A stretch of DNA of 40,654 bases from NCBI GenBank assembly GCA_023301745.1, contig JALZVW010000086.1:1-40654 (forward strand), read 5' to 3'. This DNA is from Arenicella sp. Lineage in GTDB: Bacteria; Pseudomonadota; Gammaproteobacteria; Arenicellales; Arenicellaceae. The notes beneath the pieces are model-generated. The model saw only the letters and a list, made by a program, of their open reading frames with translations, ran no database searches and was not told the origin of the DNA. The stretch's first letter is position 1. Each line of letters opens with the position of its first letter. This document shows positions 14,072 through 38,971 of this stretch, piece after piece. The position numbers were made by a program, and so were the translations under genes.

Positions 14072-14199
14072 CAGCATCGAAAAACACTCATTTCAAAGCA
14101 TTTAATGTCGTTAAATTCTTAGAATTATTTAGTCCAAAACCACGCTAACCACCTAGATAAAAAAGCAATTTAGTTCAATAGACTAATTTATAACATAAA

Positions 14200-14219
14200 T
14201 CTACCTATCAGTAGGTAGA
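14200..14219. promoter_or_regulatory. TetR-style palindromic operator candidate
   Basis: The 20-bp sequence TCTACCTATCAGTAGGTAGA has 8-bp perfect arms around a 4-bp centre. It lies 65 bases before the CmcJ-like start codon, where a repressor would sit. This size and spacing is typical of TetR-family operators, but no such regulator is encoded in the window. Confidence 0.6.
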
Positions 14220-14284
14220 CAAATTAAAACGGATCGTTTACTCTAGGGTTCTTAGCATTAACCAACTCAATATTGAGGCCTATT

Positions 14285-15088
14285 ATGAAACATTCAGTAC
14301 AAACGCAACTTAATTTTGTCGGGCCTATTGATGGCATCAAACCTCAGGTCACTTACTCAGGAACAACTAAAGGCCAAGCTTATAACCGCCCTTACGCGAT
14401 GCGTGATGTTAATATTAATAATGCACGTGCACATACTGGCAACTTTAAGTTGCACGAACACGGTTTTGAACTGGCTAAGCATCAATTACAAAACCCAAAC
14501 TTTGATGACGACGCTTGGATTCAAGAGTCTCTTTACCCGAGCATTGAATCTGTCGTCAAAAAAACTAGTGGCGCATCACATGTTTTTATCTTCGATCACA
14601 CGATCCGTCGCGGTGTTGCTAATAGCTTGCGTAAACCCGCCCAGCATGTGCATGTAGACTACACGCATAATACCGGCCCCGAACGTGCCGCCCAAATGAT
14701 AGATGCCAGCAAGCTCGCACAATTAAAAGGCAAACGTTTTATTCAAGTTAACTTCTGGCGCTCTGTAGACGGCCCTGTCGAACAACTGCCTTTAGGCTTT
14801 CTGGACTCACAAAGTCTTGATGAAGATGATCTAATTCCAGCCGAAATTGCTTTTGTAGACACTGGCCACGTTGGCGAGATTTATGCCCTTAGGCATAACC
14901 CCAAACAGCGTTGGTATTACTATCCGGATATGCAAGAAACTGAAGCCCTACTAATCAAAGGCTACGACACAGACAATGATGCTATCTCTCGGTTTACGCC
15001 GCACTCTGCATTTACCGACCCAACGTCAAAGCCCGATGCCGCTCCGAGGCAAAGCATTGAAGTGAGAACCTTTGCTTTTTTTGATTAA
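14285..15088 (+). CDS. CmcJ/NvfI-family oxygenase-like protein
   Basis: The protein (267 residues) shows the run that defines the CmcJ/NvfI family: HVHVDYTHNTGPERAAQMID, FIQVNFWRSVDGPVEQLPLG, RWYYYPDMQETEALLIKGYD, SRFTPHSAFTDPT and PRQSIEVRTF. Family members are Fe(II)/2-oxoglutarate-type enzymes known from cephamycin and fungal secondary metabolism. A metal triad H123-x-D125 plus H240 and a 2-oxoglutarate arginine (R255 or R261) can be proposed. The substrate is unknown. I chose ATG 14285, which has GAGG (14275-14278) 6 bases before it, over the TTG at 14273. It is alone, with a palindromic operator candidate upstream. Confidence 0.85.
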   Translation: MKHSVQTQLNFVGPIDGIKPQVTYSGTTKGQAYNRPYAMRDVNINNARAHTGNFKLHEHGFELAKHQLQNPNFDDDAWIQESLYPSIESVVKKTSGASHVFIFDHTIRRGVANSLRKPAQHVHVDYTHNTGPERAAQMIDASKLAQLKGKRFIQVNFWRSVDGPVEQLPLGFLDSQSLDEDDLIPAEIAFVDTGHVGEIYALRHNPKQRWYYYPDMQETEALLIKGYDTDNDAISRFTPHSAFTDPTSKPDAAPRQSIEVRTFAFFD

Positions 15089-15159
15089 CAATTGATCAAC
15101 CAAAACATGCATTTTGCTATAGACGATAAGCAAAAATTTAGTGCAGGCACCTCAAACCA

Positions 15160-15201
15160 GCCGCGCTTTACGCTTTAATAGTTACATAGATAAAGCGCGG
15201 C
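15160..15201. terminator. Large hairpin downstream of the CmcJ-like gene
   Basis: An 11-bp stem, GCCGCGCTTTA (15160-15170) with TAAAGCGCGGC (15191-15201), encloses a 20-nt loop, 71 bases after the stop codon. No T-run follows directly, so it may be a terminator or an RNA-stabilising hairpin. Confidence 0.45.
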
Positions 15202-15282
15202 CCCTGCCTCTCCCGCCTGACCTCAGTCCTTTTTAAAAGAACGCTTTATGAGCTAAGTTGCCAGAACCAGCAACAAAAAAGA

Positions 15283-15298
15283 AGTTGTTTTAACAACT
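15283..15298. promoter_or_regulatory. 16-bp palindrome just upstream of a promoter
   Basis: AGTTGTTTTAACAACT is a perfect inverted repeat that ends 6 bases before the -35 candidate at 15305. The position suits an activator or repressor site. Confidence 0.45.
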
Positions 15299-15304
15299 AA
15301 TTGT

Positions 15305-15333
15305 TTTACAAATGTAAGACAAAGGTCTATTCT
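15305..15333 (+). promoter_or_regulatory. Promoter candidate for the S41 leader
   Basis: TTTACA (15305-15310) and TATTCT (15328-15333) are separated by 17 bases. Transcription would start near 15340, giving a leader of about 385 nt before the S41 start codon. Confidence 0.5.
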
Positions 15334-15375
15334 AATTGTAAGTGAAAATAAACTTCGAGAACCTTCGAAGGTCGT

Positions 15376-15528
15376 TCAGGTCAAACTTAATCGAGCCATC
15401 AGGCTCAAATAAATAAGTAAACCTGATTCAGTACATAGGGGTATACGCGTTAATTACATGTTCAATTATTGAGCATGTATTGGCAAAGTGATGCCCTGTG
15501 TGTCACCTCGCCAAAACCGGCATACCCT
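15376..15528 (+). ncRNA. Candidate structured RNA (riboswitch-like leader element)
   Basis: Hairpin A pairs TCAGGT (15376-15381) with ACCTGA (15421-15426), then ACTTA (15385-15389) with TAAGT (15414-15418), then GAGCC (15393-15397) with GGCTC (15402-15406) around a 4-nt loop. A three-way junction follows. P1 is 15438-15444 with 15522-15528. P2 is 15455-15465 with 15469-15479 (11 pairs, one G-U). P3 is 15480-15484 with 15510-15514, then 15488-15492 with 15502-15506. P2 and P3 touch with no intervening base, as in stacked helices. I do not match it to a known RNA family. It could instead be DNA operators. Confidence 0.4.
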
Positions 15529-15712
15529 CATTTTTAGCAGCTATCAACCTGCCTAACGGCTTGCTCGAGCGACTAAGCAAACTCAGTTGTTCTGCATAAG
15601 CAGCGTTATTCTCTTGAACAACGCACAGCAAGTTGTTGTTGCTGCAATTCACCTACCAAACCATGCAAGGCGTTAAGTCTTTCATAAGCCTACAGTTTTT
15701 TATTGGTCAAAT

Positions 15713-15718
15713 AAGGAG
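15713..15718 (+). promoter_or_regulatory. Ribosome-binding site that fixes the S41 start
   Basis: AAGGAG ends 7 bases before ATG 15726, which also opens a standard signal peptide. This rules out longer forms of the frame that begin further upstream. Confidence 0.9.
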
Positions 15719-15725
15719 TCCATTA

Positions 15726-18212
15726 ATGAAGCGTATCAAATTGTTATTTTTATTGTCGTTTTCGATGCTGGGTATCGTGTTCAGTTCTCACCTGCACGCT
15801 CAGCTAGTTTCCCAAAAGTTAAGTACGGTGCGAGACAACATTGTTTTTCCAGATCTGAGTGACGCTGAGAAACGTGTCGTTGCCGAACAAGCACAACTTC
15901 TTCTCAGAGGCGTTTACGTACACCGTTTTCAGAAACAAGAGTTTTACCCTGGTGTCACCGACCCGGTGCCAGCGGTTCAGGCGGTGGTAGATAATTTAGA
16001 AAATTTAACCGTAGCCGAGATGGAATCCGAACTTTATAGGATTTTTTCATCGCAACGAGATTTACACCTAAATTATATATTTCCACAGCCTTACGCCAAT
16101 TTTCAATCGTCTCTGCCGTTAACATTTAAGAGGGTTCAAGGGCGTAGAAATTTCTTTGACGTGCATGTCGACTCTGTCAATGCCGAAAATTTTGCGGCCT
16201 TTGCCCCTGACCAAAGAGTACCCGAGCTTGGCGACCAAGTAATCGCCTATAACGGAGTACCCGTTCGCAAAGCGATTGATAGCCTATTAGAGCTCGGGCA
16301 AGGTGCCAATGAGTTCGGTGGTTTTAGTCGAGCGCTTGCTCGCTTGACCTTTAGGCCTCACCTTTTAACGCTCGTTCCAGAAGAAGACCAAGTAAATATT
16401 ACGTTTCGAGCACAAAAGGGGGGTAGGTATGGGCGCCGGTACGAGCATTATACAATTACAATGCCTTGGATAACCGCCGGCCCGCCACCTGAAGTAACAG
16501 CCCTCTCCGAACAGCGTTCAGCTAGGGTGCAAGGTTCGAATGTTATACCGCGTAAGTTTAATCTCAAAGAAATGAACATCAAAGAAGACTTGTTCCAGAA
16601 ATTATTTAATGATTTCCGTGCAGAGAATGGCTTAGTTTCGCAAAGTATCTATCCGAGTAACCCGAGTAATGAACCTGAAATCACTTGGGGCGTTATTGAC
16701 AATCGCTTAGGTAAGTTTGGCTACATTCGCTTAGCTAGCTTTGTGCCGGCTAATGGTGTCGATTTCGCGATACAAGAAATACGCAGAATTGTTTACGATG
16801 AATTTGAAGGAACACGAGGTATGGTCTTTGATGTTCGTGATAACGGTGGTGGTTTCGGGCAATTTTCAGACGAATTGCCTCAATTATTTGGTCGAAACGA
16901 AGCCGTAACAAGTCAAGACCGATTAATTAATACGGAAGAGAACGTTCGAATATTTAATGAGTCGGTGTTTGGTTTAGCTTTTCCAGAAGGCCTTGAAGCC
17001 CTTAACGAAGTCGCTGGTACTGACGCAACTCATACGCAAGAATTCAGTCTATTTGGGTCGCCAGGCTTAAATACTTTTGGCCAAGTTTATAATGGCCCGG
17101 TTGCCGTGCTGGCAAACTCAAATAGCTATTCGGCATCTGACTTTTTCTCGTGCCAAATGCAAGATTCGGGAGCAGGCTTTTTATTTGGCGAGGAACCACG
17201 AACAGGTGCCGGTGGCGCAAATGTATTTGAGCACACGGTTTTTTCAGACAATGTGCCAACGGTTTTTACTCCTCTGCCAGGCACCCATCGATCAAGAGTT
17301 TCATTTGGTCAGGCTGTTCGCAGTGGTCTAAATGAGGGAGCGTTTATTGAAGACTTCGGCTGTGAAGCTGACCTATTAGTTAGCCCAAGCTTGTCAGATT
17401 TGTTAGATGGAGGTGAAGATCAAATCACTAAAATCACATCTGCGCTTACATACCTTTCATTCTTCCCGCGCTATCGGTCGTCTGTTCGCGCACCATCAAA
17501 TGATTTTTTACAATTGCGTACCAGGGGTGATTTAGGCTTCCCTTTAAAGGTGCGAAACACCCCAAAAGTAAGAATCACTATTAACGGTGAAGTGGTCGAT
17601 GAGATCTATAGCCGAAGGTTCTTTGGCAGTACTACCATTGACTACAGCTTTCCTGACTCACTGATCATTGGCAATACAAACGCAGTACTGATTGAAGGCC
17701 TTAGTTACTCTGGTACACGGCTTTGGAACTTGAAGCGTCAAGTGGTTGTACTTGAAGAACCAATCGCTATTGGTGCCGACGGTTTTGAAGTTGACTTTGC
17801 GACAGCGGCTGGCGTGGCACCTTTCTCCATAGTGAATTCAAACCCAGCAGAAAATGGTTGGAATCTTGTCAGCCCGGCACTCCAGATTGGCTACAACCCA
17901 ACGTATGCCGACAATGTGAATTCCGATGCCCTTCTGGCTGTTGATCTTACGGCTTTGCAAAGCGCGCAACTTAGCTTTGACCTTGAAGTCGATACCGAGC
18001 TTGGCTTTGATTTTGTTGACGTATTCGTAACGGATAGCGACGGCGGGAACACTCCTTTACTGATGGAAAGTGGAGCCCAGCCGTTACAAACCTATGATTT
18101 TGATATTTCTGAATTCGCGGGTAAAGCGGATGTTCAGATTCATTTTAGGTTTACCAGTGACGCCAGTGTTGTCGCGCCTGGAGTCCGCATACAACGGGTA
18201 TCAATCCAGTAA
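15726..18212 (+). CDS. Secreted S41-family peptidase with C-terminal beta-sandwich domains
   Basis: The 828-residue protein opens with a signal peptide (1-25, MKRIKLLFLLSFSMLGIVFS, ending HLHA). An N-terminal helical region and a PDZ-like part (about 160-230, VPELGDQVIAYNGVPV) lead into the S41 core (about 320-560): GKFGYIRLASF, VFDVRDNGGGFG (368-379) and the nucleophile segment ANSNSYSASDFF, with S469 the likely catalytic serine. The position of the Ctp lysine (GEK) reads GEEPRTGAGG (488-497), so the catalytic dyad of tail-specific proteases is not conserved and the enzyme may be tricorn-like. Residues 600-680 and 685-828 look like beta-sandwich domains. It is predicted to act in the periplasm or outside the cell. 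It has an unusually long leader. Confidence 0.85.
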   Translation: MKRIKLLFLLSFSMLGIVFSSHLHAQLVSQKLSTVRDNIVFPDLSDAEKRVVAEQAQLLLRGVYVHRFQKQEFYPGVTDPVPAVQAVVDNLENLTVAEMESELYRIFSSQRDLHLNYIFPQPYANFQSSLPLTFKRVQGRRNFFDVHVDSVNAENFAAFAPDQRVPELGDQVIAYNGVPVRKAIDSLLELGQGANEFGGFSRALARLTFRPHLLTLVPEEDQVNITFRAQKGGRYGRRYEHYTITMPWITAGPPPEVTALSEQRSARVQGSNVIPRKFNLKEMNIKEDLFQKLFNDFRAENGLVSQSIYPSNPSNEPEITWGVIDNRLGKFGYIRLASFVPANGVDFAIQEIRRIVYDEFEGTRGMVFDVRDNGGGFGQFSDELPQLFGRNEAVTSQDRLINTEENVRIFNESVFGLAFPEGLEALNEVAGTDATHTQEFSLFGSPGLNTFGQVYNGPVAVLANSNSYSASDFFSCQMQDSGAGFLFGEEPRTGAGGANVFEHTVFSDNVPTVFTPLPGTHRSRVSFGQAVRSGLNEGAFIEDFGCEADLLVSPSLSDLLDGGEDQITKITSALTYLSFFPRYRSSVRAPSNDFLQLRTRGDLGFPLKVRNTPKVRITINGEVVDEIYSRRFFGSTTIDYSFPDSLIIGNTNAVLIEGLSYSGTRLWNLKRQVVVLEEPIAIGADGFEVDFATAAGVAPFSIVNSNPAENGWNLVSPALQIGYNPTYADNVNSDALLAVDLTALQSAQLSFDLEVDTELGFDFVDVFVTDSDGGNTPLLMESGAQPLQTYDFDISEFAGKADVQIHFRFTSDASVVAPGVRIQRVSIQ

Positions 18213-18237
18213 GATCTAAACTCAGTGTTTTTAGCTG

Positions 18238-18275
18238 CTGATTGCGAGTGTCATAACTCAAAAATTCGCAATCAG
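18238..18275. terminator. Hairpin after the S41 gene
   Basis: A perfect 10-bp stem CTGATTGCGA (18238-18247) with TCGCAATCAG (18266-18275) has an 18-nt loop and lies 25 bases after the stop codon. It lacks a T-run. A second hairpin, AATCTGC (18360-18366) with GCAGATT (18372-18378), lies between the two convergent genes. Confidence 0.45.
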
Positions 18276-18385
18276 TAGCCACACTGACGAATAGTTTTCG
18301 GCTCTAGCTCGGAGGTCTATTTTAAAAACCAGAGAGTTTAAAACCTCGAACTAGTGAGTAATCTGCTGCTTGCAGATTTATTCAG

Positions 18386-18431
18386 CGCTTTTTCTTCAGT
18401 TCGCTATACGCTTTTTCTTCAGTTCGCTAAA
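18386..18431. repeat. 23-bp tandem duplication across the cinA stop codon
   Basis: Copies begin at 18386 and 18409 and share 21 identical bases (cgctttttcttcagttcgct plus a). On the minus strand the first copy encodes SELKKKR. The period is not a multiple of three, so the second copy is read in another frame and ends in a new stop. Confidence 0.9.
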
Positions 18432-38784: not shown

Positions 38785-38811
38785 TCGTTCTTAGATATTG
38801 TCGATATTTTT

Positions 38812-38836
38812 AAGGCCAATCACATGATTGGCCTTT
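38812..38836. terminator. Rho-independent-type terminator
   Basis: AAGGCCAATCA (38812-38822) pairs with TGATTGGCCTT (38825-38835), followed by a short T-run. It lies 27 bases after the stop of the lysine-rich gene. Confidence 0.75.
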
Positions 38837-38971
38837 ATCTCGTTAAGCACTAAATAAATACATGGCAAATAACGTTTGCCCCTATGAAGCATCTAATTTA
38901 GGCAGAGAATTCTAAGAAATAAACGTAGACTTAAACTCTAGTTCTCGAAAAATACTTTTAACTCCCAGCTC

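Follow-up and report, generated by a model that had tools for sequence, protein, structure and literature searches.

The 5′ stem-loop leaders of ompA and papA of E. coli and of aprE of B. subtilis belong to the mRNA stability literature cited in PMC3997798. The leader that we describe here, which precedes an S41 peptidase gene in the genus Arenicella, resembles them in carrying predicted hairpins near the 5′ end of the mRNA leader of a protein that is probably exported. The product of B. subtilis aprE is a secreted protease. However, ompA-type leaders are, to our knowledge, shorter, and neither a three-way junction nor an invariant switching strand has been described for them.

Riboswitches and the other cis-regulatory leaders in Rfam are likewise structured regions before one gene, with competing pairings. 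The peptidase leader differs from them in that it matches no model, its sequence is barely conserved outside short motifs, and it is seen with one gene family in one genus. A Shine-Dalgarno (SD) sequence in or beside a hairpin is typical of CsrA/RsmA-controlled leaders and of RNA thermometers. The peptidase leader shares this arrangement too, although its SD hairpin is weak in the window.

The window, that is, the whole stretch of DNA analysed, comprises 40,654 nt of a contig (JALZVW010000086.1) from Arenicella, a gammaproteobacterium. We favour, as the likely reading, a 5′ leader of about 386 nt that serves one peptidase gene, acts in cis on translation or mRNA lifetime, and may use the hexamer UAGGGG as a switching strand. 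Comparison with orthologous leaders shows a conserved unit made up of a promoter-like site, the predicted hairpins P1 and P2, a predicted junction opened by UAGGGG, and a 3′ module at the ribosome-binding site (RBS). Its parts, and the gene that follows, are listed here.

15305–15333, + strand: sigma-70-like promoter (TTTACA, 17 nt, TATTCT; 9/12 matches)
15340–15351, + strand: conserved 5′ end block AAGTGAARATAA, the predicted first transcribed bases, supported by its position in orthologs
15353–15370, + strand: P1 hairpin, at the same place with different sequence in 4/4 leaders
15376–15426, + strand: P2, a three-part long hairpin; a long hairpin of different sequence in 4/4 leaders
15436–15441, + strand: UAGGGG, a hub with competing partners, invariant in four leaders
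15438–15528, + strand: three-way junction closed by P3 (15438–15451 with 15515–15528), from the MFE fold and homologs
15455–15479, + strand: junction hairpin A, from the MFE fold and homologs
15480–15514, + strand: junction hairpin B, in which 15492–15502 offers UAGGGG its alternative, inner pairing
15643–15725, + strand: conserved 3′ module, with TGCAATTCACC, a hairpin at 15667–15681, CCTAC at 15689–15693 and the SD AAGGAG at 15713–15718
15704–15722, + strand: small hairpin with the SD in its loop (−1.4 kcal/mol in the window, weak)
15726–18212, + strand: S41 peptidase, CPAF-like, probably secreted, 828 aa (PF03572, 7.5e-18)

The best NCBIfam match of the peptidase is the CPAF model NF033424 (4.6e-22), but the score is 78 bits where the cut-off is 250, so that ‘CPAF-like’ denotes resemblance only. 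Judged by eye its N-terminus looks like a signal peptide, and the enzyme is probably exported from the cell. A search of PDB sequences with the peptidase and a tblastn search with it against plasmids both found nothing. Upstream, on the same strand, lies a gene for a CmcJ/NvfI-family oxidoreductase (14273–15088).

A sequence-only reading of this gap had proposed a leader of about 385 nt from 15340, with a three-part hairpin at 15376–15426, a three-way junction at 15438–15528 in which two helices abut, and more inverted repeats to 15644. With its start at 15340 and the ATG at 15726, the leader would be 386 nt long. The single-sequence MFE fold returns the hairpin and the junction at identical coordinates, places the inner hairpins 15455–15479 and 15480–15514 side by side with no spacer, and has helices up to 15645; the part past the junction folds more weakly (z −2.14). 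The proposal that such order is unlikely by chance also stands up: region 15350–15540 has a z of −5.77, with none of 200 dinucleotide shuffles equally stable, and 15340–15725 has a z of −4.85, with 0 of 100 shuffles as stable. The folding control, 108 tiles of 190 nt from both strands of the window, gave a mean z of −0.66 (sd 1.10, lowest −4.23). Folding strength alone is nevertheless a lead and not proof, because four of the 14 other gaps in the window (130–600 nt) also fold strongly, with z < −2.9 on at least one strand; the strongest is 18213–18395, at −5.28. The further strongly folding gaps, with z on the + and − strands, are 1–132 (−3.19 and −4.04), 14072–14272 (−2.92 and −1.18) and 38785–38971 (−3.27 and −2.06).

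The suggestion that this is a candidate new element agrees with the Rfam search, which gave no match in the window at the gathering threshold. When 15089–15740 was searched against Rfam 15 with E up to 10, seven matches were returned, none credible: the highest score was 20 bits against 134 and the lowest E was 0.27, with 17.5 bits against 94. A tRNA and tmRNA search found none, and in the literature we found no paper on this element and no report of a riboswitch in Arenicella or of a riboswitch in the untranslated region of a peptidase S41 gene.

By protein search the peptidase gene occurs in six of 18 genomes of the genus, the window's own included. Its distribution is patchy; none of the three other genomes of the family has it. 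Protein identities to the orthologs are 80% (G017), 76% (G002), 75% (G006), 70% (G010) and 60–63% (G011, in two pieces). The G017 leader is missing because the contig edge falls inside the gene. The upstream region of G011 (L026, G011:C215) is shorter because a divergent gene starts roughly 290 nt from the ATG, and this ortholog (fold z −2.28) was kept out of the topology tests. Its upstream region is different as well as shorter, yet the start context GGTC..AAGGAGGCC is kept. Four leaders could thus be compared: those of the window, G002, G006 and G010. The upstream neighbour genes are different in each of these four species, which argues that the leader travels with the gene.

We also looked further afield. 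Searching 61 genomes (the window's own and 60 relatives) with blastn gave no leader homology and no second copy; two further matches, of 28 and 49 bases, had E values of 0.004 and 0.009, and the match in G010 is on a different contig from the G010 peptidase. Blastn of the leader against plasmids found no second copy. Order-wide, an ortholog search of 109 genomes at E 1e-40 gained only relatives of 30% identity, in G032 and G044 (G039 has a match at 1.5e-31), and a class-wide search of 369 genomes at E 1e-60 gained none.

What has been conserved at the sequence level lies mainly at the two ends. In the window, G002 and G006 the promoter reads TTTACA, 17 nt, then TATTCT or TATGCT, and by eye AAGTGAARATAA begins exactly 29 nt past TTTACA in all three; in G010 the promoter spacer is 18 nt and the block has diverged. 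Thus the earlier prediction of a 5′ end near 15340 gains from the orthologs, in which both the promoter-like site and the predicted 5′ end keep their position. In the window scan itself, sigma-70-like sites are no more numerous than expected from shuffles. In the 480 nt that precede each of the four genes, common words cluster at the promoter and ahead of the start codon. For words of 8 letters with one mismatch there are five shared windows (mean 0.2 and highest 2 over 30 shuffles); for 10 letters with two mismatches, seven (mean 0.2, highest 2); for 12 letters with three mismatches, again seven (mean 0.4, highest 2). At 9 letters with one mismatch there are none (shuffle mean 0.07).

Profiles built with one sequence left out were tested 16 times (four modules in four sequences), and each module was missed once. 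The 5′ module was refound in three of four (E 7.5e-6, 1.3e-4 and 1.7e-7; G010 missed), as was the 3′ module (E 7.3e-7, 2.1e-6 and 2.2e-4; window missed). The 3′ module stripped of its SD was refound weakly in three of four (E 0.003 to 0.23). For the junction core, the top match fell at the right place in three of four, also weakly (E 0.02 to 0.35; G002 missed). Run over the 18 genus genomes, the 5′ and 3′ module models recover the four training sites at E 3e-12 or better, by construction, and nothing else below E 0.02 (among the best 150 first-look candidates in most genomes); models R1 and R2 gave further weak matches at E 0.02 to 1. With no other convincing site in these 18 genomes, the element appears tied to one gene. 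Of the four known leaders, two match the pattern GTGARRATAA..TAGGGG, which has one match besides, in G015. We take the G015 site to be chance, and its TAGGGG end lies inside a frame on the opposite strand. We also rejected the idea that the peptidase coding region extends upstream in its own frame: G006 has an in-frame stop, and by eye the CCCTAC frames differ.

To compare structure, we folded the four leaders one by one and unaligned. In the stretch from the 5′ block to UAGGGG, each yields a pair of simple hairpins side by side, P1 and P2, and nothing else. With the first 8 bases excluded from the fold and the 5′ block retained in the shuffles, this topology appeared in 118, 139, 257 and 137 of 2000 shuffles (6–13% per sequence). 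The junction, a GGGG-opened helix enclosing two hairpins, also forms in all four leaders, in a fragment that starts 12 nt upstream of UAGGGG and ends 110 nt downstream of its first base; shuffles that keep UAGGGG produced it in 78, 90, 44 and 67 of 1000 cases (4–9% per sequence). For the three homologs without the window, the products are ∼6e-4 for P1–P2 and ∼3e-4 for the junction, values that serve as a guide only because the criteria were fixed after the folds were seen. When the fragment length was varied, the junction was the MFE structure at 16, 13, 14 and 7 of 18 lengths (window, G002, G006 and G010).

The compensating changes that the sequence-only reading had proposed to look for in homologous leaders were found in part. 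Helices are kept despite sequence change, and in P3 both partners have changed at two positions (U-A to C-G and A-U to U-A), with several G-C/G-U swaps. On the other hand, alignment-based consensus folding of the four leaders is weak: the consensus is worth −6.6 to −6.8 kcal/mol and gives the inner pairing described below, not the junction, with a small extra hairpin in one of three alignments. Structure-aware alignment of the four divergent leaders yielded no consensus structure.

In the three homologs, strong folding of the full leader is found mostly on the sense strand. For the full leaders, sense z values are −5.40, −2.43, −4.76 and −2.46 (window, G002, G006 and G010), against antisense values of −4.93, −0.28, −1.59 and −1.06. 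Slightly different cuts gave sense z values of −1.76 (G002; 2 of 100 shuffles as stable), −4.78 and −2.66. Some parts lean towards antisense (G006 P1–P2 stretch, −0.07 versus −1.91; G010 3′ part, −0.67 versus −1.04), and the G010 core is equal on the two strands (−2.13 and −2.04). The window leader itself does not discriminate RNA from DNA, because both of its strands fold equally strongly. Judged from the homologs, the leader is probably a sense-strand structure. Its fold is kept in relatives though most letters have changed, and it is therefore probably a control element of one gene. Judging from these comparisons, a conserved cis-acting RNA leader of the peptidase gene is what we have probably found.

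The hexamer UAGGGG has more than one possible partner. With the 3′ arm of P3 omitted, as would be the case during synthesis of the RNA, UAGGGG and the bases around it find an inner partner strand, by at least five pairs, in all four leaders; the same pairing arises in 75, 108, 91 and 96 of 1000 shuffles. Because this inner pairing is possible in 4/4, UAGGGG may be a switching strand. In G002, adding four bases shifts it to another partner. The full-length ensembles differ between species: in the window the inner partner has a probability of ∼0.6 and the junction partner ∼0.2; in G002 the inner partner has ∼0.9 and the junction partner under 0.1; in G006 the outer (junction) partner has 0.97; and in G010 a further inner strand has 0.42, the outer partner 0.34 and the inner partner 0.19. 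UAGGGG can also pair with CCUAC before the RBS, by 4, 6, 7 and 6 Watson–Crick pairs, a pairing that is not clearly above chance since shuffled tails often reach it (173, 275, 23 and 190 of 1000).

We can sketch how such a leader might work. P1, which begins 13 nt after the predicted transcript start, and P2 would together shield the transcript from decay near its 5′ end. As the RNA emerges, the first partner of UAGGGG would be the inner GCCCU-like strand, to be replaced later by the junction's 3′ arm. Whichever of the two folds is adopted would alter how accessible the RBS module is, and within that module the SD would sit in or beside a small hairpin. In the window a rival helix (15696–15704 with 15710–15718) covers the SD, the SD hairpin energy is −3.4 to −6.6 kcal/mol in four orthologs, and SD accessibility differs between species. 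We infer that the leader works in cis as RNA and affects how well the peptidase is translated or how long its mRNA lasts. A switching step by UAGGGG we put forward tentatively. Bolder, and rather improbable, is the idea of a bistable leader class in which UAGGGG picks the inner partner or the junction (perhaps also the CCUAC beside the RBS), switching a CPAF-like secreted protease on or off in response to some signal.

Other explanations have to be weighed. Selection may have acted on the promoter and the RBS only, the folding in between being chance; the clustering of shared words at just those two places fits this, as do the four other strongly folding gaps and the weak or absent alignment consensus. 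We consider it unlikely, given that none of 200 shuffles is as stable, that three homologs of different sequence share the topology, and that the full homologous leaders are biased to the sense strand. About equally doubtful is a protein or thermal switch (CsrA/RsmA-type or RNA thermometer) at the SD hairpin alone, with the rest a stability leader. A GGUC/GGCC-type hairpin does surround the SD in four orthologs, with G-C changed to A-U at the foot of the hairpin in G010. The strict form of this pattern has four matches across 18 genomes, two of them in the peptidase leaders of G002 and G011 and the other two inside other genes. AAGGAG is needed as an SD anyway, though, the −1.4 kcal/mol of the window hairpin is slight, and the shared 5′ architecture would be left unexplained.

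The layout of a junction with competing partners for one invariant strand is also that of a metabolite riboswitch, in which the UAGGGG junction would serve as aptamer, with the 3′ module as expression platform. Here the possibility raised by the sequence-only reading loses ground, and we judge it improbable: Rfam offers no match, the junction loops and hairpins are not conserved in sequence (in four sequences the core invariants are only UAGGGG and scattered columns), and the leader is seen with one gene in one genus only. Attenuation by a leader peptide is less probable again. A GTG frame of 19–27 codons opens at transcript base 3 (base 9 in G010) in all four leaders, beginning VKI in three, and its translation would open P1 and P2 because the frame runs through P1 into P2; in the window it spans 15342–15416. 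Yet the peptides differ after VKI, no SD is seen upstream of the frame, frames of such a kind are by estimate not rare by chance, and within 14800–16200 of the window the three terminator-like sites are all on the − strand. The lack of a + strand site in that interval also counts against a separate small RNA that would start at 15340 and end before the gene, another possibility raised earlier. It would have its own promoter-like site, strong folding and AUUUUU after P3 in the window, but G006 and G010 lack an equivalent of this U run downstream of the junction, and the conserved module continues through the SD to the ATG. We regard this as the least likely of the readings considered here.

The probable cis-acting leader of the peptidase gene adds a structured 5′ leader to those that Rfam does not cover. 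It stays with a single peptidase in a marine genus that has been little studied, and its common fold and motif order identify it where blastn detects no similarity. Should the switch be real, this would be a class of regulatory RNA that escapes sequence-based discovery, conservation being limited to a hub of six bases, the two ends and the folds.

Strong predicted folding also occurs beyond the other end of the peptidase gene. In the gap at 18213–18395, downstream of the peptidase and convergent with the cinA gene, it matches that of the leader (z of −5.28 on the sense and −3.58 on the antisense strand) and includes a 16-pair hairpin at 18234–18279. This fold is probably a 3′ end structure of the peptidase mRNA.
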